34,039 nt of DNA from a virus, in the IMG/VR virus record IMGVR_UViG_3300025642_000003, positions 1 to 34,039 of that record; one strand, given 5' to 3'. Under the pieces are notes generated by a model. The model made no database searches. It saw only the letters and a list, made by a program, of their open reading frames with translations, and was not told where the DNA came from. Numbering within the stretch: position 1 is the stretch's first letter; each line of letters starts with the position of its first letter. Both the position numbers and the translations under genes were made by a program. Shown in pieces: positions 1,619 through 32,604 of the stretch.

Positions 1619-1916
1619 TATCGGGGCAGATCTTATTGGGATCCAGCACATGGATTGCCAGTACTGTTTTGCTCGATTCGCTACTGAGCTGGCTCATGGG
1701 CTGGTGTATAAGAGAAATTACAACCGGAGATCCAGCTGGAAGAAGATCAATGTCCGGCCCAATGCAATGCCTTGCTGCCCTGGGTGTCAGAAGTTCAGTG
1801 AGACCTACGAAGGACGGAAGCATGCGTGGAATGTGTTGTGCGATTGGTACGGGGAAGAAGTTGTCCAGGCTTTCCTGGATGGGCTGGACCTAAAGATAAA
1901 GGATAACTATGGCTGA
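1596..1916 (+). CDS. Small zinc-finger-like hypothetical protein
   Basis: A 106-residue protein with CxxC at residues 21-24 (CQYC) and CCPGC at about 60-64, a plausible four-Cys zinc site. It is followed by a helical segment (AWNVLCDWYGEEVVQAFLDG). The ATG at 1596 overlaps the previous gene by 23 nt and sits after GGATAAGG. A later ATG at 1650 would leave the CxxC pair at the very N-terminus, so the earlier start is preferred. The function is not recognised. Confidence 0.7.
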   Translation: MRKETWIDIGADLIGIQHMDCQYCFARFATELAHGLVYKRNYNRRSSWKKINVRPNAMPCCPGCQKFSETYEGRKHAWNVLCDWYGEEVVQAFLDGLDLKIKDNYG

Positions 1917-2217
1917 GAGAGGAAGGCTTGCAAAAGAACGGGCCAAGATTATGAAGGCTTATTATTGTTTCGTTGGTGAGGCTGAGTATTCGATCCTGGT
2001 ATTCTCTATGACGAAGGGTCTGGCTAAGGCTGCGGTTGCTCAGGAGATCGATGCTGATTTTACAGATGTGACCTGTCGGCGCTGTAGTGGTTATGATCGT
2101 TATGCTCGGAATCGGATCTCTCCACACAATACTCCGCTGCTGTTGATGGATAATGCTGATTGTGCAGCTGCTGGTGTCCCTGATTATTATTCGGAGGTGG
2201 AAGATGCCAGCTTATAA
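1909..2217 (+). CDS. Hypothetical protein
   Basis: A 102-residue protein overlapping the previous stop by 8 nt. The core from residue 15 (MKAYYCFVGEAEYSILVFS) looks like a small alpha/beta unit. A CRRCSGYDRYA segment follows, then an acidic tail. An alternative start at ATG 1951 would give 88 residues. The pattern of short beta strands and 'AKAAVAQEID' resembles small phage proteins of unknown role, and no function is assigned. Confidence 0.65.
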   Translation: MAERGRLAKERAKIMKAYYCFVGEAEYSILVFSMTKGLAKAAVAQEIDADFTDVTCRRCSGYDRYARNRISPHNTPLLLMDNADCAAAGVPDYYSEVEDASL

Positions 2218-2587
2218 TTTCAAAGCTGAGTTCGCTGGTGCTATCGTGTACGGTGAAAAGGCTCAGACCATCCGGAAGGTAAGGAAGAATCCGACGAAGG
2301 TTGGTCAGAGAATTTATCTTTACACTGGGATGCGAACGAAGCATTGCCGAAAGTTGGGGGAAGGAGAGATTATATCAGTTGAGCCATTTGGCATTCTAAA
2401 GGATGGTACTTATCTTGTTGGGAATCTCTTTCACCTGGGAGAAAATAGTTTTGATGAAGATTGTACTGGTGAATTATTGGCTCAGGCTGATGGGTTCAAC
2501 TCATACTCTGAGTTTGTGAAATTCTTTGAGGATACCTACGGGCTGCCATTCAAGGGAGAACTTATCAAATGGAGGTTGGATGAATAA
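2204..2587 (+). CDS. ASCH-like domain protein (putative RNA/nucleic-acid binding)
   Basis: A 127-residue protein starting at ATG 2204 after GGAGGTGGAAG. The frame is open to 2153, but that upstream stretch lacks a ribosome site and reads as junk. The N-terminal half, with FKAEFAGAIVYGEKAQTIR, VGQRIYLYTGMRTKHC and LGEGEIISVEP, follows the ASCH/PUA-like beta-barrel pattern: a 'G.K..TiR' loop, a 'vGd.l.lytg' strand, then 'G...i..v'. ASCH proteins bind RNA or modified nucleotides. In phages they are usually small, stand-alone and unassigned. The fold is inferred from the pattern; the biological role is unknown. Confidence 0.75.
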   Translation: MPAYNFKAEFAGAIVYGEKAQTIRKVRKNPTKVGQRIYLYTGMRTKHCRKLGEGEIISVEPFGILKDGTYLVGNLFHLGENSFDEDCTGELLAQADGFNSYSEFVKFFEDTYGLPFKGELIKWRLDE

Positions 2588-2720
2588 TGTTGAGCGGGAA
2601 AACCTTTATAACAAAATTGACGGTGACGAAGAATTGTCTGATGGAGAAAAACGAGATGCATTTAATGAAATGTTAGAAGATGACTACTGGCGAGAGCAGG
2701 AAGAACGGGAGGGACGATGA
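2580..2720 (+). CDS. Small acidic hypothetical protein
   Basis: A 46-residue protein beginning at ATG 2580, inside the last codons of the previous gene, with GGAGG at 2571-2575 directly upstream. It is highly charged (NVERENLYNKIDGDEELSD, EEREGR) and mostly helical. It ends in a 4-nt overlap with the RusA-like gene, so it is probably cotranslated with it. The function is unknown. Confidence 0.6.
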   Translation: MNNVERENLYNKIDGDEELSDGEKRDAFNEMLEDDYWREQEEREGR

Positions 2721-3073
2721 AGATAATTCTTGAAGGTGAACGTCCCTGGTCCTGGAATCAAATGTACGCTGGCGTTCACTGGTCAAAGCGAAAGGAAGAA
2801 GCCGATCGTGTTCACGATGAGGTCTGGCTTGATTGTCATGTATTCAAAAGGGAAATGATTATTGGCGTGGTGGATATTCTCGTTACTGCTTACTTCAAGA
2901 ATAGACCGCAGGACTCAGATAATATCTGCTCGAAGCTGTATATTGATGGGCTGATTGGAAACGTGATTGAGGATGATACCAGGGAATTTGTCCGGAGGGT
3001 GTCCACTCAATCTGAGGTTGACGAAGAAAATCCACGAGTTGAGATTGAAATAATAGTATTGGAGGATGAATGA
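2717..3073 (+). CDS. rusA: RusA-like Holliday junction resolvase
   Basis: A 118-residue protein matching the RusA endodeoxyribonuclease family in length and motif order: an N-terminal strand IILEGERPWSWNQMY, then the catalytic block PQDSDNICSKLYIDGLIG with D66, D68, N69, K73 and D77, then IEDDTREFVRRVST (D86, D87). RusA enzymes are dimers that cut four-way junctions. In phages they process recombination intermediates before packaging. The Lys here lies five residues after the second Asp, whereas the E. coli enzyme has four; this is a branch variant. The start overlaps the previous stop by 4 nt. Confidence 0.88.
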   Translation: MKIILEGERPWSWNQMYAGVHWSKRKEEADRVHDEVWLDCHVFKREMIIGVVDILVTAYFKNRPQDSDNICSKLYIDGLIGNVIEDDTREFVRRVSTQSEVDEENPRVEIEIIVLEDE

Positions 3074-3393
3074 ATACCATTTGGAAGTATGAGCTTCAGA
3101 TTACCGATGTGCAGACGCTGTCAGTTCCGGTTGGAGCGAGACCATTGAAGGTTGGGTCCCAAGAGAAGGATCAAGATAAGATATCCCAGGCCCAGCTCGA
3201 TGAAGGTTGGCGGTTAGTTCCACTTGATGCTCTGATGATCTGGCTTCAGGTGGATCCGGAAGCAGAGCTGATTGATGTTGTATTTCGGGTCATTGGCACT
3301 GGTCACAAGTTTGATCCAGCTGGGCTTTGGCATTGGGGAACTACAGATTGTAATGGATATATTTGGCATGTATTTATGGAGGCTGGATTATGA
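3070..3393 (+). CDS. DUF7352-like small protein
   Basis: A 107-residue protein whose ATG overlaps the previous stop. The pattern IWKYELQITDVQTLSVPVGA near the N-terminus and VVFRVIGTGHKFD plus NGYIWHVFM at the C-terminus is that of the small phage/bacterial DUF7352 family (IWKYxL..TD.Q...mP.GA ... GTGH ... WHVF). This copy has an extra charged segment (VGSQEKDQDKISQAQ) between the first strands. No molecular function is established for the family. Confidence 0.7.
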   Translation: MNTIWKYELQITDVQTLSVPVGARPLKVGSQEKDQDKISQAQLDEGWRLVPLDALMIWLQVDPEAELIDVVFRVIGTGHKFDPAGLWHWGTTDCNGYIWHVFMEAGL

Positions 3394-3803
3394 ACCATTG
3401 TGAGCGGTGCGGTGATCCAACTTCTAATCCAAGATTTTGTTCCAGACGTTGCTCTATTCTTACTGTGAGGGCAAGTGGAAAGAAACCAGATCCTTCCCTT
3501 GATCGTATGAGGTTTCCTACCGAGCTTGAAAAGGCTTGGGCTTCTGGGTTTTGGCAGGGGGATGGAAGTGTAGCCAATTCTACGAGGAATAGAGGATTTC
3601 GTTCTCTCCGAGTTTCTGTTTATCAGAAAGAGAAATACCCCTTGTTGTTATTGAGGGAATGCTGGGGTGGGAGTATTCGACCAGATAAAGATAAATGGAA
3701 TTGGTCAGCTTGCGGTGCGAGGGCAGAAGAGTTTTTGAATGATATTATCGAATGGGCTTCTCCCAGAAGAATAAAACAAATTAGAAAAGCAAGGAGTGTG
3801 TGA
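3390..3803 (+). CDS. LAGLIDADG-like homing endonuclease with N-terminal zinc knuckle
   Basis: A 137-residue protein from ATG 3390 (4-nt overlap with the previous gene). The N-terminus has C4-x2-C7 and C17-x3-C21, a treble-clef-like metal site. At residues 50-60, WASGFWQGDGS matches the LAGLIDADG helix-plus-acid pattern (A.GFwqGDGs, D58 as metal ligand). It is followed by the expected beta strands (FRSLRVSVYQKEKYPLLLLRE, WGGSIR) and a C-terminal basic tail. The length suits a single-motif enzyme working as a dimer. It is free-standing, not in an intron or intein that I can see. It probably cuts a related phage genome at this locus. Confidence 0.75.
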   Translation: MNHCERCGDPTSNPRFCSRRCSILTVRASGKKPDPSLDRMRFPTELEKAWASGFWQGDGSVANSTRNRGFRSLRVSVYQKEKYPLLLLRECWGGSIRPDKDKWNWSACGARAEEFLNDIIEWASPRRIKQIRKARSV

Positions 3804-4408: not shown

Positions 4409-4433
4409 ACCCCAGGGTTTCAAGCCCTGGGGT
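4409..4433. terminator. Strong hairpin after the accessory block (candidate bidirectional terminator)
   Basis: A 9-bp perfect stem, ACCCCAGGG / CCCTGGGGT, with a 7-nt loop lies 20 nt past the stop at 4389. The + strand has no real T-run after it. On the - strand the stem is followed by TATTTTTTAT, so it looks most like a terminator for leftward transcription. A second small stem, TTCGGA-GCCGAA-TCCGAA (4438-4455), follows. Confidence 0.55.
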
Positions 4434-4479
4434 TACGTTCGGAGCCGAATCCGAAAGTAAATTTATTATAAACTATATT

Positions 4480-4488
4480 TGCTATAAT
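4480..4488 (+). promoter_or_regulatory. Extended -10 promoter before the first glycan block
   Basis: TGC TATAAT (extended -10, TGnTATAAT) lies in an A/T-rich stretch (4456-4480) directly before an AAGGAGGT ribosome site (4494-4500) and ATG 4511. No good -35 is visible, which fits an extended -10 promoter. Confidence 0.6.
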
Positions 4489-4510
4489 GGGGAAGGAGGT
4501 TGTGGCTCTG

Positions 4511-4573
4511 ATGAAAAATATACATAGAGGCGAGAGGGCGTTCATCATAGGTAATGGTCCAGGCTTGTTATGA
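4511..4573 (+). pseudogene. Orphan 20-codon N-terminus of a GNGPSL/DUF115-type gene, now a leader ORF
   Basis: The ORF has an excellent ribosome site (GGAAGGAGGT, 4491-4500) and encodes MKNIHRGERAFIIGNGPGLL. The segment 'GERAFIIGNGP' is the nucleotide-binding-like start of DUF115 / MptE-like and sialyltransferase-like proteins; the gene at 11595 has GNGPSL. The frame stops at once with TGA, overlapping the next ATG as TTATGA. I read it as a truncated gene whose start signals now drive the next gene by translational coupling. A genuine leader peptide is the alternative. Confidence 0.55.
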
Positions 4574-4860
4574 GATCACCACCAAAAACCAAACCGCCAA
4601 CCAGTCGACCGTCCGGTCCGGCTCCACCCCCACCACCAGGAGGTCCGATGTCCCAACCGCCACCTAAAAGAACTCCACCAGCTGGTGGGTCGAATGTGTC
4701 TGGTCCTAATAAGAAGATGATCGAGTGTCCCTGGTGTCATATGTTTACGAGGGCATTCGATACATGCAGCCATTGTAATGGTCCGGCTTTCCCTATCATC
4801 AAGCGTGGCCCGAACAAGACTGAGAAACCGAAGATTCCGAAGGGAGGGAGGCGATACTGA
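4570..4860 (+). CDS. Proline-rich zinc-ribbon protein
   Basis: A 96-residue protein. Residues 1-45 are low-complexity Pro/Gly/Ser. Residues 52-70 hold CPWCHMF...CSHC, a CxxC...CxxC zinc ribbon, followed by a basic tail (KRGPNKTEKPKIPKGGRR). There is no good ribosome site of its own; it starts inside the stop of the 20-codon ORF at 4511. A nucleic-acid- or protein-binding role is possible. No family is recognised. Confidence 0.65.
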   Translation: MRSPPKTKPPTSRPSGPAPPPPPGGPMSQPPPKRTPPAGGSNVSGPNKKMIECPWCHMFTRAFDTCSHCNGPAFPIIKRGPNKTEKPKIPKGGRRY

Positions 4861-15664: not shown

Positions 15665-16255
15665 ATGGCAATCCAGAATGGTTACTGTACTCTAATTGAG
15701 TTCAAGGCTTTCAAAGATATCGGTTCCACTGATACTGGTGATGATGCTGTCATTGAATCAATCGTGGAGGCTGTGAGTCGATATATCGATAAGGAAACTA
15801 ATCTATTCTTTTATGATGATCAGGCTGCGGTCCGTTGTTACTCTCCGGAGATGGGCGATATGCTCCAGTTAGATGCTCCGCTGTACGGTGTTGATTCTCT
15901 AAAGACTGATGATGATGGTGATGGTACTTACGAGAATACCTGGGCCACGACTGATTATCACTTGATGCCCTTGAATGGCGATACTAAGCATTGGATCCGG
16001 ACTAATCAGAATGGGGATTATGCATTCCCTGTTGGGGTCCTGGCTGGGGTTGAGATTACTGGTGATTGGGGTTATGCTGCTGTTCCTGCTGATATCAACT
16101 TGGTCTGCATGAATATCGTAAAGAACGTGAACGGTCGGCGTGAGGGTCAGGGCGATGAGGCTGTGCAGATTACCGCTGCTGGTGTCGTTATCACTCCCAA
16201 GGATATTTCTCCCTATGATCGGAAGGTCCTGAACCAATATCGGAGGCCCAGGTGA
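15665..16255 (+). CDS. Head-tail connector (gp6-like)
   Basis: A 196-residue protein with GGAG at 15656-15659. The N-terminal helical pair (CTLIEFKAFKDIGSTDTGDDAVIESIVEAVSRYIDKETN) is the 'phage QLRG / gp6-like' connector pattern of small helical subunits bound under portal. A beta region follows (YSPEMGDMLQLDAPLYGVDSL, GDWGYAAVPADI). The C-terminus is helical and ends PYDRKVLNQYRRPR. Its place directly after the capsid gene supports an adaptor role. Confidence 0.8.
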   Translation: MAIQNGYCTLIEFKAFKDIGSTDTGDDAVIESIVEAVSRYIDKETNLFFYDDQAAVRCYSPEMGDMLQLDAPLYGVDSLKTDDDGDGTYENTWATTDYHLMPLNGDTKHWIRTNQNGDYAFPVGVLAGVEITGDWGYAAVPADINLVCMNIVKNVNGRREGQGDEAVQITAAGVVITPKDISPYDRKVLNQYRRPR

Positions 16256-27234: not shown

Positions 27235-27257
27235 ATGGCGGGAGGTGATACTTCAAG

Positions 27258-27287
27258 AAGCCCTGGGAGAAATCCTGGGGCTTTTTT
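27258..27287 (+). terminator. Rho-independent terminator ending the late operon
   Basis: An 11-bp stem AAGCCCTGGGA / TCCTGGGGCTT (two G-T wobbles) has a GAAA tetraloop at 27269-27272 and a T-run of 6 at 27282-27287. It ends the virion/lysis transcription unit after the holin. Confidence 0.9.
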
Positions 27288-27301: not shown

Positions 27302-27329
27302 TTGACATTGTATAACGTTATGATATAAT
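27302..27329 (+). promoter_or_regulatory. Consensus sigma70 promoter with operator-like inverted repeat
   Basis: TTGACA (27302-27307), 16-nt spacer, TATAAT (27324-27329). The inverted repeat TGTATAAC (27309-27316) / GTTATACA (27331-27338), spacing 14 nt, straddles the -10 box, a good position for a repressor. It is the only near-perfect promoter seen, and it probably drives the early rightward genes from 27451. Confidence 0.85.
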
Positions 27330-27436: not shown

Positions 27437-27450
27437 TAGGAGTGTGTAGC

Positions 27451-28053
27451 ATGAAAAGAATAACCGTTGATCTAGTAATGAGCTTTGACCCCTGTTACGA
27501 CAGAGAAACTGTCAGTAAATTATTTGCTGGCAAAAAGTGGATGTTGCCAACAACTGTATTGAAACTTGATACCGTTAGTGCAGAAGATAAAATCTGGTTG
27601 TTGTGTAGAAACGAGTTTGTATCTGAACAGAACCTGCGTCTATTCGCTTGTGATTGTGCTGAACGAGTGCTACCTATCTTCGAGAAAGAATATCCAGAAG
27701 ATAACCGACCGCGGAAAGCAATAGAAACCGCAAGGCTTTTTGCAAATGGGGAAGCAACTCAAAAAGAAATGGATGCTGCTTGGGCTGCGGCTAGGGCTGC
27801 GGCTTGGGAAGCAACTCAAAAAGAAATGGATGCTGCTTGGGCTGCGGCTAGGGATGCGGCTTGGGCTGCTGCTTGGGCTGCGGCTAGGGCTGCGGCTAGG
27901 GAAGCAACTCAAAAAGAAATGGATGCTGCTTGGGCTGCGGCTAGGGATGCGGCTTGGGCTGCGGCTAGGGATGCTAGGGCTGCTGGGGCTGCTGCTTGGG
28001 ATGCTGAACAGAAGTGGCAGATTAATAAACTGTCTGAATATTTAGGAGGTTGA
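27451..28053 (+). CDS. Imm-5-like domain protein with Ala/Trp-rich tandem repeats
   Basis: A 200-residue protein. ATG 27451 follows TAGGAGTGTG. The N-terminal half (NLRLFACDCAERVLPIFEKEYPEDNRPRKAIETARLFANGEA) is the 'CAE..L...e...P.D.RPr.AIe.ar.w..G...' signature of the Imm-5-like / putative immunity family seen in phages and bacteria. The C-terminal half is built from repeats of EATQKEMDAAWAAARAAAW type; three DNA copies of a 46-nt unit start at 27751, 27808 and 27901. It probably forms a long helical rod. It is the first gene behind the strongest promoter, so a role early in infection is likely. Activity is unknown. Confidence 0.75.
   Translation: MKRITVDLVMSFDPCYDRETVSKLFAGKKWMLPTTVLKLDTVSAEDKIWLLCRNEFVSEQNLRLFACDCAERVLPIFEKEYPEDNRPRKAIETARLFANGEATQKEMDAAWAAARAAAWEATQKEMDAAWAAARDAAWAAAWAAARAAAREATQKEMDAAWAAARDAAWAAARDARAAGAAAWDAEQKWQINKLSEYLGG
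27751..27946 (+). repeat. Three near-identical 46-nt in-frame repeats
   Basis: Unit GAAGCAACTCAAAAAGAAAT plus GGATGCTGCTTGGGCTGCGGCTAGGG, at 27751-27796, 27808-27853 and 27901-27946. Spacings are 57 and 93 nt. Identity at DNA level means recent expansion and likely copy-number variation. Confidence 0.9.
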
Positions 28054-29229: not shown

Positions 29230-30204
29230 ATGTCTGATGATAAAGCTCTATCTGTTCACTCCCCTACTGGCCTACTGGTTCCGGTCGCATCTCTTGAAGA
29301 GTTGAAGGCTGCGTATGATGCTAAACAGGCTTTTGTAAAAGCCTTGATGGTTGACGGGACCGATTATGGGACTATCCCTGGAACGGGATCCCGTCCGACT
29401 TTATTGAAACCAGGTGCTGAAAAGATCGCCAAGCTTTATGGGGTCCGAGTTGCTTTTCACTTGGTTGATTATACTGAGGATTGGCTGGGGGATGATCATG
29501 GCGGTGAACCGTTTTTCTATTATCGCTACCGATGTGATTGGGTCAAAGATGGGGAATTGATTGCTTCCTCTGAAGCTTCCTGTAATTCCTGGGAAGAAAA
29601 ATATCGTTACCGGACTGCAAAGCCGATCTGCCCTACTTGTGGCGAGGGTCTGCGTAAGTCTAAGAATGATGGTGGTTACTATTGCTGGATCAAGATGGGA
29701 GGCTGCGGTGCTACCTTTGGTCCTGATGTCATTGTTGGCCAGCAGCTTGGAAAGATTCCGAATCCCAATCCCGCTGATATCGTAAACACAATTCAGAAGA
29801 TGGGCCAGAAACGTTCGATGGTTTCCAATGCTTTGATCGTTGGGGATATGTCAGATATATTTACCCAGGATCTTGAGGATCTTCCGACCGGTGGATCTCC
29901 GGATGTCACGATCACAAAAGATAATCCTACGAAGGTTCCCCCAAAACGAAAGGGCAAGAAGAAAGCTCCGGCGAAAGAGAAGGCTAAGGTTGATACGGCT
30001 GCTATTTATGATGCGGTTGTCAATGAGGGGCTGGCTGAGAATACTTTTGCTGCTGAGAATGCTCTGGCTCGTTGCTCTACTGGATGGGCCACATCGGTCG
30101 CTGCTATATCCTGGATGCGTTTTTATCGGGGCCACAGAGACCTTGGTAAGTCTGTTGACGCTGCAGTGGATCTCGCCAATTCTGGTCAGCCACCAGCGAT
30201 GTAA
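29230..30204 (+). CDS. Conserved phage protein with central zinc ribbon (possible recombination role)
   Basis: A 324-residue protein with ribosome site TGGAGG (29218-29223). Pattern: VDGTDYGTIPGTGSRPTLLKPGAEKIAKLYGV (residues 42-73), a 'YRYRCDWVKDGELIASSEASCNSWEEKYRYR' strand set, CPTCGEGLRKSKNDGGYYCWIKMGGCGA as the zinc ribbon, then DIVNTIQKMGQKRSMVSNALI...MSDIFTQDLEDL. This layout is shared by many phages and is often near replication/recombination genes; it recalls the RecT/Erf/Sak type of annealing proteins by context only. The C-terminal ~90 residues (basic KRKGKKKAPAKEKAK linker plus helical domain) are an extra. Confidence 0.75.
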   Translation: MSDDKALSVHSPTGLLVPVASLEELKAAYDAKQAFVKALMVDGTDYGTIPGTGSRPTLLKPGAEKIAKLYGVRVAFHLVDYTEDWLGDDHGGEPFFYYRYRCDWVKDGELIASSEASCNSWEEKYRYRTAKPICPTCGEGLRKSKNDGGYYCWIKMGGCGATFGPDVIVGQQLGKIPNPNPADIVNTIQKMGQKRSMVSNALIVGDMSDIFTQDLEDLPTGGSPDVTITKDNPTKVPPKRKGKKKAPAKEKAKVDTAAIYDAVVNEGLAENTFAAENALARCSTGWATSVAAISWMRFYRGHRDLGKSVDAAVDLANSGQPPAM

Positions 30205-30214
30205 TCTATAACTG

Positions 30215-30268
30215 ATGGGGTGCTACTCTATCGCAGGATACTGGCTGGTGAAAGTCAGCCCACCCCAT
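30215..30268 (+). other. Folded RNA leader region downstream of 29230 gene
   Basis: An 8-bp closing stem ATGGGGTG (30215-30222) / CACCCCAT (30261-30268) encloses a second hairpin CTGGC...GTCAG. It is directly followed by GGAGG (30270-30274) and two tiny ORFs (ATG 30279, five residues; ATG 30283, nine residues). No recognisable riboswitch class. Confidence 0.45.
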
Positions 30269-30290
30269 TGGAGGTTCAATGAATGATCTG

Positions 30291-30299
30291 TGGTAAAAT
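30291..30299 (+). promoter_or_regulatory. Extended -10 promoter for the 30306-30377 RNA
   Basis: TGG TAAAAT with a predicted start at about 30306-30307, exactly where the terminator-loop-complementary sequence begins. A second TGC TAAAAT lies at 30317-30325. The -35 is not convincing. Confidence 0.45.
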
Positions 30300-30305
30300 G
30301 AATGT

Positions 30306-30377
30306 TGGGTAGGATGTGCTAAAATTTATAAGAAAGCGATTCCTCACATCCTACCCTGGAAACGGAATCGCTTTTTT
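30306..30377 (+). ncRNA. Putative small RNA with 5' end complementary to its terminator loop
   Basis: GGGTAGGATGTG (30307-30318) is a perfect 12-bp match to CACATCCTACCC (30345-30356). That sequence sits inside the 20-nt loop of stem AAAGCGATTCC (30333-30343) / GGAATCGCTTT (30364-30374), which runs into T6 (30372-30377). The two helices interleave (pseudoknot topology) or compete sterically. No coding function is seen in 30206-30439 apart from tiny ORFs. Confidence 0.6.
30333..30377 (+). terminator. Intrinsic terminator with long loop
   Basis: An 11-bp stem with 20-nt loop and six Ts. The loop contains 12 bases complementary to 30307-30318. Confidence 0.85.
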
Positions 30378-30439
30378 ATTTCTGGAGTTGCAGGTTCTAC
30401 TATTCGGAATATTATTTATAGAAATATCTAGAGGGAAGA

Positions 30440-30865
30440 ATGAGCGGAATATATATCATCATAAATAAAGTGAATAATAAAACTTATATCGGATCGACTC
30501 AAACAACGTTTGCGGATAGGTGGGACAATTGGCGATCTCTATTGAATAATAACAAAGGGCAGCACCATCCTGTTTTACAGAACGCTTGGAATAAGTATGG
30601 GGCTGAAAGTTTTAAGTTTCGGGTGTTGGAGGAATTCCCAGGCTCGATTACAAAAGATGAGGTTAGAGAAATTGAGCAATGGTATTTTGATAATTTCAAA
30701 ACCCATGATACGAACGGTGGATATAACATTGCAACGTATGCTTCTCATTCAAGACAGAAATATGATCCCGCAACGATAAAATTATTAGTTGACACGATGG
30801 GGGTAACTGCTAATACAGCAAGGTTATGGATTCGTAATGTTGAAAAATATGGGGTTGCATTCTAA
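30440..30865 (+). CDS. GIY-YIG homing endonuclease
   Basis: A 141-residue protein with ribosome site GAGGGAAG. The catalytic module MSGIYIIINKVNNKTYIGST holds the GIY and YIG elements (3-5, 16-18). R27 (FADRWDNW) matches the catalytic Arg position of I-TevI. E79 in EIEQWYFDNF is the likely metal-binding Glu. NGGYNIA closes the domain. The C-terminal TIKLLVDTMGVTANTARLWIRNVEKYG is a short HTH DNA-recognition module of NUMOD type. It stands alone (no intron seen) and probably spreads into related phages at this intergenic locus. AT-rich codon use sets it apart from its neighbours. Confidence 0.9.
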   Translation: MSGIYIIINKVNNKTYIGSTQTTFADRWDNWRSLLNNNKGQHHPVLQNAWNKYGAESFKFRVLEEFPGSITKDEVREIEQWYFDNFKTHDTNGGYNIATYASHSRQKYDPATIKLLVDTMGVTANTARLWIRNVEKYGVAF

Positions 30866-31029
30866 TGAGATCTGTAATTTTCCTGGTCGTTTACGGAGTG
30901 TTGTACTTCCACTTTCAGTTGTGGCGGTTGACGGATAGCTTTGTTCAACCGCCATTGTTCTACGGGGTGGTCGCTGGCTTTGTTCTGTTTGATCTACTAG
31001 AGATGGGTTTTATAAGGAGTTACGAATGA
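30865..31029 (+). CDS. 54-residue two-span membrane protein
   Basis: ATG 30865 overlaps the previous TAA (TAATG). The product has two hydrophobic spans, SVIFLVVYGVLYFHFQL (3-19) and FYGVVAGFVLFDLLEMGF (32-49), with a polar turn and a basic tail. The next gene overlaps it by 4 nt. Possibly superinfection exclusion or an inner-membrane factor; unassigned. Confidence 0.6.
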   Translation: MRSVIFLVVYGVLYFHFQLWRLTDSFVQPPLFYGVVAGFVLFDLLEMGFIRSYE

Positions 31030-31508
31030 CGAATGATTTGATCCCTGCTCCCACGAACGATGTCCAATCATATACCGATCCGGCTGATTCATTCCAGGCT
31101 GAGGCGGTGTTCAAAGCCAACTCTGCTTTCAGCAAAGAGCAAAACGATTATGAGCAGATGTTGATCTGGTTCCAGGCTTGGGTGCTGCAGCGGAGGCATA
31201 CTACTTCTCTGGTTCGCTCTATGCTACCTGGCCCTGGGGCTTATTACGGAAACCAGTTCGGGCCAGGTGACGAAAACGTTACTCGGCTCGCCGATTTTGG
31301 CTTTAGTAAGATGCAGTTTTTTAGACGCTGCAAGGAACTTGAGGTTGATCCGGATGTGTTTTATTCTTATTTGGATGAATGCATCGAGCAGACTAAACAG
31401 CCATCACTTTACGGGATGCTCCGCTTCTCTGGTGCTGGTTCCTCGCTGGGTCATCCTGGTGAGGTTCGATGTCCGCATTGCTCCGGCAAAGGTTGGGTGA
31501 AGAAATGA
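31026..31508 (+). CDS. Hypothetical protein with C-terminal CxxCxGxG motif
   Basis: A 160-residue protein with ribosome site AAGGAGTTACGA. The N-terminal 25 residues are polar. The middle is helical (DYEQMLIWFQAWVLQRRHTTS, FGFSKMQFFRRCKELEVDPDVFYSYLDECIEQ). C-terminal RCPHCSGKGWVKK is a single CxxCxGxG unit of the DnaJ-type zinc module. The helix-rich middle could be a DNA- or protein-binding domain. Family not recognised. Confidence 0.65.
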   Translation: MTNDLIPAPTNDVQSYTDPADSFQAEAVFKANSAFSKEQNDYEQMLIWFQAWVLQRRHTTSLVRSMLPGPGAYYGNQFGPGDENVTRLADFGFSKMQFFRRCKELEVDPDVFYSYLDECIEQTKQPSLYGMLRFSGAGSSLGHPGEVRCPHCSGKGWVKK

Positions 31509-32027: not shown

Positions 32028-32032
32028 TTTCA

Positions 32033-32041
32033 TGGTATACT
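32033..32041 (+). promoter_or_regulatory. Extended -10 promoter for the 32048-32137 RNA
   Basis: TGG TATACT; the predicted start is at about 32048, which coincides with the first base of GCTTAGG, complementary to the apical loop of the same RNA. Confidence 0.5.
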
Positions 32042-32047
32042 GGAAGA

Positions 32048-32137
32048 GCTTAGGGTTTACAGATCATTGAGAATAAAAAGCGACTTCTGAACTGTGATCC
32101 TAAGCAATCACTCTCAATTTTTCAGAAGTCGCTTTTT
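32048..32137 (+). ncRNA. Putative small RNA, second member of the terminator-loop-complementary type
   Basis: A 17-bp perfect stem AAAAAGCGACTTCTGAA (32075-32091) / TTCAGAAGTCGCTTTTT (32121-32137) has a 29-nt loop. In the loop a small hairpin GTGAT (32094-32098) / ATCAC (32107-32111) presents CCTAAGC (32099-32105), which is complementary to the predicted 5' end GCTTAGG (32048-32054). ATTGAGA (32066-32072) also pairs with TCTCAAT (32112-32118). Same order as 30306-30377. Confidence 0.6.
32075..32137 (+). terminator. Intrinsic terminator with 17-bp stem
   Basis: A stem of 17 bp without mismatch ends in T5 (32133-32137), followed by GTTT. It separates the accessory genes from the replication initiator. 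Confidence 0.85.
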
Positions 32138-32154
32138 GTTTATAAGGAATGTTC

Positions 32155-32604
32155 ATGGCATATAAATTACCAAATCATACTCAGACACCAAATGAATTAC
32201 TGGATGATCACTTACCTGATATGGGGTTCGCTGAGTTGAAAGTGGTTCTGGTCATTTGTAGAAAAACATTTGGCTGGCACAAAGGTGTTGATCGGATTAG
32301 CTTATCTCAGTTGGAAAAGCTTACTGGCTTGTCCAGGCCGGCAGTTGTGAATGGGATCAAGGAAGGTATAGATCGAGGGGTTATTCAACGGGATCAAGTA
32401 GGTAACGGTTTTTACTATTCGCTTATCTGTAGTAAAGAAGCTTTACCAGCACCTAGTAAAGAAGCTTTACTAATGAATAAGGGGTGGACTAGTAAAGAAG
32501 CTTTACCCACAAAAGAAAGAACTAAAAAAAGTAAAGTAATAAAGAAAGATGGTGTGCGCACTTCTTTCTTATTAAAAGAATTTCCAGATTTTATTGAAGA
32601 CTGA
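32155..32604 (+). CDS. Replication initiator / replisome organizer N-terminal domain protein
   Basis: A 149-residue protein. ATG 32155 is 6 nt after AAGGA (32144-32148); ATG 32149 would have no spacing. N-terminal NHTQTPNELLDDHLPDMGFAELKVVLVICRKTFGWHKGVDRISLSQLEKLTGLSRPAVVNGIKEGIDRGVIQRD is the wHTH of phage RepO/replisome organizer proteins ('tpn.lld.~m...s.~e.kVll.i.R.t.Gwhk..d.is.sql...tGls...v...i'). The C-terminal half (SKEALP repeats, then Lys-rich) is encoded by origin iterons and an AT-rich tract, as in lambda O. It binds the origin and recruits the helicase loader. Confidence 0.85.
   Translation: MAYKLPNHTQTPNELLDDHLPDMGFAELKVVLVICRKTFGWHKGVDRISLSQLEKLTGLSRPAVVNGIKEGIDRGVIQRDQVGNGFYYSLICSKEALPAPSKEALLMNKGWTSKEALPTKERTKKSKVIKKDGVRTSFLLKEFPDFIED
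32430..32560 (+). other. Candidate origin of replication (iterons plus AT-rich region)
   Basis: Three palindromic iterons (32432-32506) are followed by an A-rich tract (32510-32550, mostly AAAGAAAG / AAAAAAAG / TAATAAAG) suited to strand opening. The arrangement inside an initiator gene is as in lambda O. Confidence 0.75.
32432..32506 (+). repeat. Three iterons GTAAAGAAGCTTTAC in the initiator gene
   Basis: Identical 15-nt units at 32432-32446, 32456-32470 and 32492-32506. Each is an inverted repeat GTAAAG-AAG-CTTTAC. Start-to-start spacings are 24 and 36 nt. They encode the three SKEALP peptides. Confidence 0.9.

Follow-up and report, generated by a model that had tools for sequence, protein, structure and literature searches.

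The locus examined here raises the question of why a short intergenic segment of a phage genome should place, between a promoter and a homing-endonuclease-like gene, a terminator whose loop contains the perfect complement of the first transcribed bases, and whether this arrangement reflects chance, an insulating terminator, a free-standing RNA or a regulator of the gene behind it. The window, by which we mean the whole stretch of DNA analysed, is a 34,039-bp circular phage contig with a terminal repeat of 98 bp. Our analysis points to a member of a family, apparently not described before, of short phage RNAs in which the opening bases pair with the loop of the transcript's own terminator. As to function, we infer with slightly better than even confidence that the site encodes a leader RNA that acts in cis as a transcription attenuator and that phages carry as a portable control cassette.

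Genomic context and near relatives

The element (element 2 hereafter; a second, element 1, lies further downstream) is located between the phrog_10048 gene at 29230-30204, whose function is unknown, and a + strand gene at 30440..30865 encoding a GIY-YIG homing-endonuclease-like protein of 141 aa (Pfam GIY-YIG, 1.7e-10; phrog_314, 3.7e-23), with its ribosome binding site (RBS), GAGGGAAG, just 5' of 30440 on the same strand. Two further + strand features occupy the gap. A predicted three-way-junction hairpin (30212..30270; closing helix ATGGGGTG/CACCCCAT; MFE -25.4, z -1.6) is placed between the upstream stop codon and the Shine-Dalgarno (SD) sequence of a mini-ORF of five codons, MNDLW* (30279..30296; ATG AAT GAT CTG TGG TAA), and this SD, TTGGAGG at 30268-30274, is strong. 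Further upstream in the window, a perfect consensus sigma-70 promoter (27302-27329; TTGACA-16-TATAAT with a TG extension) stands just 3' of a strong terminator (27255-27286) and is likely the main promoter of the rightward early genes, and the ORF at 27442-28053 contains tandem 12-bp coding repeats (27771-28013) specifying an Ala/Trp/Arg-rich stretch (AAWAAARDAAW...).

The window has two near-identical relatives (L002 and L003), and a third relative (L018) is a mosaic: its positions 2110-2960 match window 30202-31047, an 846-bp block with diverged flanks that opens precisely at the upstream gene's stop codon and includes element 2, the gene for the GIY-YIG protein and an ORF of 54 aa. The three-way-junction hairpin is also identical in L018 and moves together with the cassette. 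The sharing of this block between differing flanks argues that element 2 and the nuclease gene moved jointly as one recent cassette, and the block has the appearance of a tract left by recent homing or exchange. The arm, stem and loop segment of element 2 (X, B and X' below) are identical in its near relatives, so that no covariation can be read from element 2 itself.

The sole difference within the L018 block is an in-frame insertion of three nucleotides in the mini-ORF at 30279 (MPNDLW* vs MNDLW*). This insertion, the strong SD and a stop codon about 11 nt 5' of X would suit leader-peptide attenuation, in which ribosomes on the mini-ORF of read-through transcripts decide whether X can pair. 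We give that mechanism very little weight, however: the insertion is the one informative difference, and most other members of the class start their transcript at X, with no such ORF.

Anatomy of the element and departure from chance

The original prediction had named an extended -10, a 5' arm and a terminator with the arm's complement in its loop, and every one of these parts was found where it had been placed, all on the + strand. The extended -10 (TGG-TAAAAT, TGGTAAAAT; 30291..30299), with a predicted transcript start at about 30306, has the TG extension, lacks a good -35 and overlaps the last codon and stop of the mini-ORF (30279-30296). The arm X (GGGTAGGATGTG, 12 nt) occupies 30307..30318, and its perfect 12-nt complement X' (CACATCCTACCC, 30345..30356) lies inside the 20-nt loop of the terminator. 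The terminator had been correctly located, as had its T6 tract (30372-30377), but its stem is longer than the 11 bp first proposed: 14 perfect pairs join the 5' strand B (30330..30343) to the 3' strand B' (30364..30377, T tract included), or 16 positions with one mismatch on an alternative count (30328-30343 / 30364-30379).

Shuffling, which had been put forward as a way to refute the prediction, produced equal complementarity only rarely, and the arm:loop match is beyond chance. With the 80 nt upstream dinucleotide-shuffled and the loop held fixed, at least 12 perfect complementary bases arose in 6 of 50,000 shuffles (a chance of about 1e-4), and the same test over 30205-30329 gave 9 of 50,000; counted from the predicted start onward, the arm match has a p of 3e-4. 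Complementarity to this loop was at most 10 in every other 80-nt segment of the genome, and a scan of the whole window for terminator loops complementary to upstream sequence ranked element 2 first. Fold predictions give an MFE-stable terminator (z -7.0 with the arm left out), and in them an RNA ending at the arm's complement adopts the arm:loop helix (-20 kcal/mol, z -4.1).

A sequence family supported by covariation

The same scan independently recovered, as 32048-32137, what is evidently the other element of the original prediction (element 1, at 32030-32151). Its parts, again on the + strand, are an extended -10 (TGG-TATACT, TGGTATACT; 32034..32042; predicted start about 32048-32049), the 5' arm X (GCTTAGGGTTTACAG, 32048..32062), a segment D (ATTGAGA, 32066..32072), the 5' strand B of a 17-bp terminator stem (32075..32091), X' and D' in the loop (32092..32105, and TCTCAAT at 32112..32118), the 3' strand B' with the T tract (32121..32137), and a conserved 3' flank, TTATAAGGA (32140..32148). 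This flank holds the SD of the next gene, an O-like replication initiator (32149..32604, + strand; Phage_rep_O, 4.6e-11; phrog_678, 2.6e-18). In both elements the predicted start falls within about one base of the first base of X. A search of element 2 for a complementary D:D' pair gave none.

By blastn, a stretch of L298 is 69% identical to element 1. This homolog (L298a) has a TTGACA-17-TATGAT promoter and retains X:X', D:D' and B:B' with different bases; double compensatory changes separate it from element 1 at two pairs of X:X', four of D:D' and six of B:B', and a single pair, in B, fails to form in both. The covariance-model search suggested with the original prediction was carried out with a model (R1) built from element 1 and L298a, with the B stem as its sole structure, and it found members in other phages. 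R1 recovered L152 (E 1e-10), L142 (9e-6) and a second L298 copy, L298b (4e-5), and also matched L004 at the correct place (E about 0.5); E-values from R1 and from R2, its refit to element 1, L298a, L298b, L152 and L142, are rough, and the sequence family consists of those five members only. Neither a model search of 291 additional genomes nor a blastn search covering 398 genomes from the order to which L298's host bin belongs yielded a further member.

All five members keep three crossing helices, namely the arm:loop helix X:X', the helix D:D' and the terminator B:B'. L298a and L152 are close homologs, alike in promoter flank, D and 3' flank, and in them 9 of the 15 pairs of X:X' carry double compensatory changes and none is broken; these changes are the strongest evidence that the arm:loop pairing is under selection. 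Because the MAFFT alignment puts D' one base off, the count of compensatory pairs was taken from helices that had been written out explicitly.

L298 itself carries two RNA cassettes about 1.5 kb apart (1823-3734), each before a different HNH nuclease gene. At about 3706-3760 of L298 (- strand), and in the matching region of L152, an inverted repeat (CGTTACA...TGTAACG) flanks the -35 TTGACA and is likely an operator through which a repressor controls the leader promoter.

Element 2 clearly belongs to the architectural class and, as far as its sequence can tell, is likely a member of the element 1 family as well. R1 aligns it end to end (positions 1-137, 18.4 bits), matching -10 to -10, X to X and B to B and placing its -10 on the TATNAT of relatives that carry TTGACA too, with an E-value of 2.3e-4 in the 235-bp intergenic region and of 0.09 in 92 kb. 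An R2 search of 1.4 Mb did not return element 2 at E ≤ 1, and family membership is therefore likely rather than certain. The preference originally expressed for a shared class rather than chance is borne out, as R1 both recovers members in other phages and aligns with element 2. The accompanying description of the two elements as unrelated sequences is probably wrong, because the model makes them look like distant homologs.

The same layout in other phages

The layout extends beyond the five-member family. The phage of L004, whose phrog_10048 protein is 50% identical, has the promoter TTGACA-17-TATTAT and behind it an X:X' of 20 pairs, a D:D' of 9 bp and a terminator of 17 bp, directly upstream of an HNH-like gene related to endonuclease VII. 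Relatives with a phrog_10048-type protein yielded further units, one before a DUF1064/Myb-like endonuclease (L139) and two associated with a DnaD-like replication protein (L146 and L147), and bacterial contigs with prophage-like genes yielded two units in L315, one of which precedes a T5orf172/GIY-YIG-type gene, and one in L359. Outside the family the D:D' helix occurs in L004 and L139. A unit also lies upstream of the replication initiator gp39 of Eggerthella phage PMBT5 (p 0.001), which shares its PHROG (678) with the replication gene of the window; a diverged relative of this PMBT5 protein, sought in the viral collection for covariation, was not found. Altogether about nine more phage units, unrelated in sequence, have the promoter, arm and terminator-loop layout, including the one in the cultured PMBT5. 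Consensus promoters (TTGACA-16 to 18-TATNAT or close variants) stand just 5' of X in L004, L298a/b, L152, L142, L315 and L359.

A promoter-first scan of the loci, in which a sigma-70-like promoter had to lie 15-110 nt before a strong large-loop terminator, gave 21 units. X:X' helix scores were at least 24 in nine of them (loop-swap expectation 1.7) and at least 33 in five (expectation 0.0); most of the extra units came from a detector tuned on the first cases, a tuning that the loop-swap control addresses. The detector combining helix score, promoter requirement and loop-swap control replaced an earlier energy-based one (RNAduplex, open interior loops), which was too lenient and showed no enrichment at most thresholds. 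The notion that the element is the partner RNA of one nuclease family was rejected, 80 GIY-YIG and 80 L139-type loci being mostly without it. The rep-O genes of Acinetobacter and Pasteurella have no upstream gap and hence no space for an element.

These results bear on the simplest reading, namely that a plain intrinsic terminator insulates a nuclease gene inserted recently, its long loop matching the arm to no effect. The terminator is indeed strong by itself, and free-standing homing genes are often held at low expression (PMC2988022). The reading is nevertheless already disfavoured, and we regard it as very improbable: nine double changes keep the arm:loop pairing between close homologs, the match beats both shuffles and loop swaps, and the same cassette precedes replication genes too.

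Two other RNA-like features were seen among the loci. L178 (4261-4461, - strand) and L179 (about 4430-4633, - strand) share a structured RNA, 89% identical and with a strong terminator, in which the bases of an internal hairpin change and the pairing is kept (GCCC/GGGGC vs CCGCC/GGCGG); the L178 copy precedes an HNH-like gene, and the RNA has no Rfam or phage match. L328 (about 15721-15800, - strand) carries a promoter and terminator unit before an Abi_2/AbiF-like protein, which recalls the described abiF RNA.

A portable cassette

The conserved block of element 1, L298a and L152 extends via TTTATAAGGA to the start codon of the next gene, which is a replication initiator behind element 1 and an HNH nuclease behind each of the other two. 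The block of L142 and L298b likewise extends via CAGGGAGTAA to the start codon of the next gene, which specifies a DnaD-like replication protein in L142 and an HNH nuclease in L298b. The flank at 32140..32148 is common to element 1, L298a and L152, and the next genes of the latter two are unrelated to that of element 1. Because conservation reaches the start codons of non-homologous genes, the moving unit comprises promoter, RNA, terminator and RBS, and a module conserved through the SD to the ATG of unrelated genes favours a leader acting on the next gene over a free-standing RNA gene.

Such a gene would encode a small trans-acting phage RNA, its three crossing helices forming a compact pseudoknot with the 5' end protected in the terminator loop, and nucleases and other genes would sit behind it because its terminator is a harmless insertion site. 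We consider this unlikely, though less so than the other alternatives. It would agree with the units' own promoters and strong terminators, with a structure that is highly conserved and a sequence that is little so, and with the two copies per phage or contig (the window, L298 and L315); the linkers in element 1, L298a and L152 would, by our own estimate, permit three side-by-side helices. It agrees less well with a conservation that takes in the next gene's SD and ATG, with the same-strand ORF that begins about 4-60 nt past the terminator in nearly every unit, and with a target search that was negative, no 9-mer of X recurring elsewhere in the genome.

Proposed mechanism of attenuation

Returning to the cis-acting leader, two features of an attenuator are present: an intrinsic terminator between promoter and gene, and a helix that is predicted to compete with this terminator and shows compensatory change, the covariation coming from the sequence relatives, not from element 2. 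Growing transcripts of ten units were folded from their own starts, in predictions that leave out pseudoknots and kinetics. X:X' was part of the MFE structure once X' ends in all ten (with five pairs in L146) and was still in the fold at mid-B' in eight, and the completed B:B' won at full length in ten of ten.

Under this mechanism, transcription would begin at or near the first base of X, and X would pair with X' as soon as the latter emerges from the polymerase, at a time when, by thermodynamic prediction, the second half of the terminator has yet to be made. In the five sequence relatives and L004 the second helix, D:D', could follow, and the terminator B:B' would form last. These helices cross, and the longer ones would be sterically strained if all coexisted, so that they may compete or form a strained pseudoknot; the event at the T tract would then set the frequency of read-through into the downstream gene, here the GIY-YIG nuclease. 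The majority of transcripts would probably be short, about 75 nt, and hold their 5' end in the terminator loop; candidate triggers are read-through from upstream, ribosomes translating the mini-ORF, a factor of phage or host origin, or the short RNA in trans.

Because the linker from X' to B' is short, full coexistence of X:X' and B:B' should be strained for the longest arms (20-24 pairs), and X:X' should thereby delay or weaken the terminator. Such weakening predicts partial, tunable read-through, and it is on this basis that we infer attenuation. Against this, the completed terminator wins by MFE in all ten units, so that the effect of the arm on termination may be small, and element 2 itself has neither a good -35 nor a D helix. 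More tentatively, and with somewhat less than even confidence, the arrangement X D B X' D' B' may represent a new, three-crossing-helix class of phage RNA regulator, acting as a compact triple pseudoknot or a three-step folding relay, in a promoter-to-RBS cassette swapped between homing nucleases and replication initiators.

Comparison with known systems

Type III toxin-antitoxin systems (ToxIN) have the order promoter, pseudoknotted RNA, terminator and nuclease ORF, together with tandem repeats. The order is shared by the cassettes described here; a type III toxin-antitoxin RNA was nonetheless rejected, as the reported site has no tandem repeat units and the downstream proteins belong to GIY-YIG, HNH, DUF1064 or replication families. 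The CI RNA of phage P4 is a same-strand leader with complementary segments, associated with early termination before replication genes and with termination-based immunity. Our elements resemble it in the complementary segments of the leader and in the proposed control by early termination before replication genes, but a P4 CI RNA-type leader was also set aside, since the arm-in-terminator-loop layout was absent from the P4 leader, which served as positive control in the same scan.

Same-strand feedback, as with the P4 CI RNA or Gifsy-1 IsrK, would make the element an autogenous attenuator acting in trans, in which the terminated short RNA pairs with X or X' of nascent transcripts of the same type and sets their termination or translation. 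Both X and X' are present on each short RNA, and copy-to-copy pairing is possible by sequence. We judge this improbable, since intramolecular pairing would compete strongly and the P4 leader lacks the layout; IsrK does have the same part order and, in trans, targets its own long transcript (PMC4825925).

IsrK, from the Salmonella prophage Gifsy-1, has its own promoter, a short RNA and a leaky intrinsic terminator, with read-through into a phage gene (PMC4825925). The likeness to our elements lies in the order of promoter, sRNA, leaky terminator and ORF and in partial read-through, which for our elements is predicted, and alternative RNA structures control IsrK. The differences are that the available part of that source describes no 5' arm paired into the terminator loop, and that IsrK is a single locus exerting antirepressor control via a translated ORF, with a known effect in trans (PMC4825925). 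The T4 homing endonucleases I-TevI, I-TevII, I-TevIII and SegB, and MobE of Aeh1, are subject to promoter-dependent hairpin control (PMC2988022). There too, an RNA structure before a homing gene limits its expression in a manner that depends on the transcript start; in those genes, however, the hairpin hides the RBS and acts on translation, whereas here the structure is an intrinsic terminator with the RBS behind it. The HMP-PP (thiS) riboswitch, with its terminator-embedded aptamer, likewise has a regulatory fold inside the terminator hairpin of a short leader, but is a metabolite sensor of thiamin genes (PMC6478431), whereas our element has no Rfam match. A ligand pocket within X and X' is made less likely by their lack of sequence conservation.

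Searches against Rfam 15 (riboswitches, T-box, HEARO, abiF RNA and others) returned only tRNAs in the window, at gathering and relaxed thresholds, and only tRNAs at the gathering threshold in the element-bearing loci L004, L139, L142, L146, L147, L152, L177, L298, L315, L359 and L364. Similarly, when the region and several elements were compared with cultured phages by blastn, nothing matched apart from PMBT5 itself. No description of the arm-in-terminator-loop layout was found in the open-access papers searched, nor in the available parts of the accounts of the nearest systems.

Biological implications

The element looks like a portable, built-in switch for the output of DNA-cutting and replication genes. 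The cassette precedes selfish nuclease genes and genes for the start of DNA replication, two kinds whose level a phage must limit. If the attenuator reading is true, a portable and hitherto undescribed RNA switch is at work in phages, with the first bases of a transcript reaching into its own terminator loop, and an unusual crossing-helix design would join the known transcription attenuators and provide a compact part for RNA engineering. The silencing of homing genes outside T4-like phages would then become a directly testable question, and PMBT5, a cultured Eggerthella phage with this layout, is an accessible system in which to test it.
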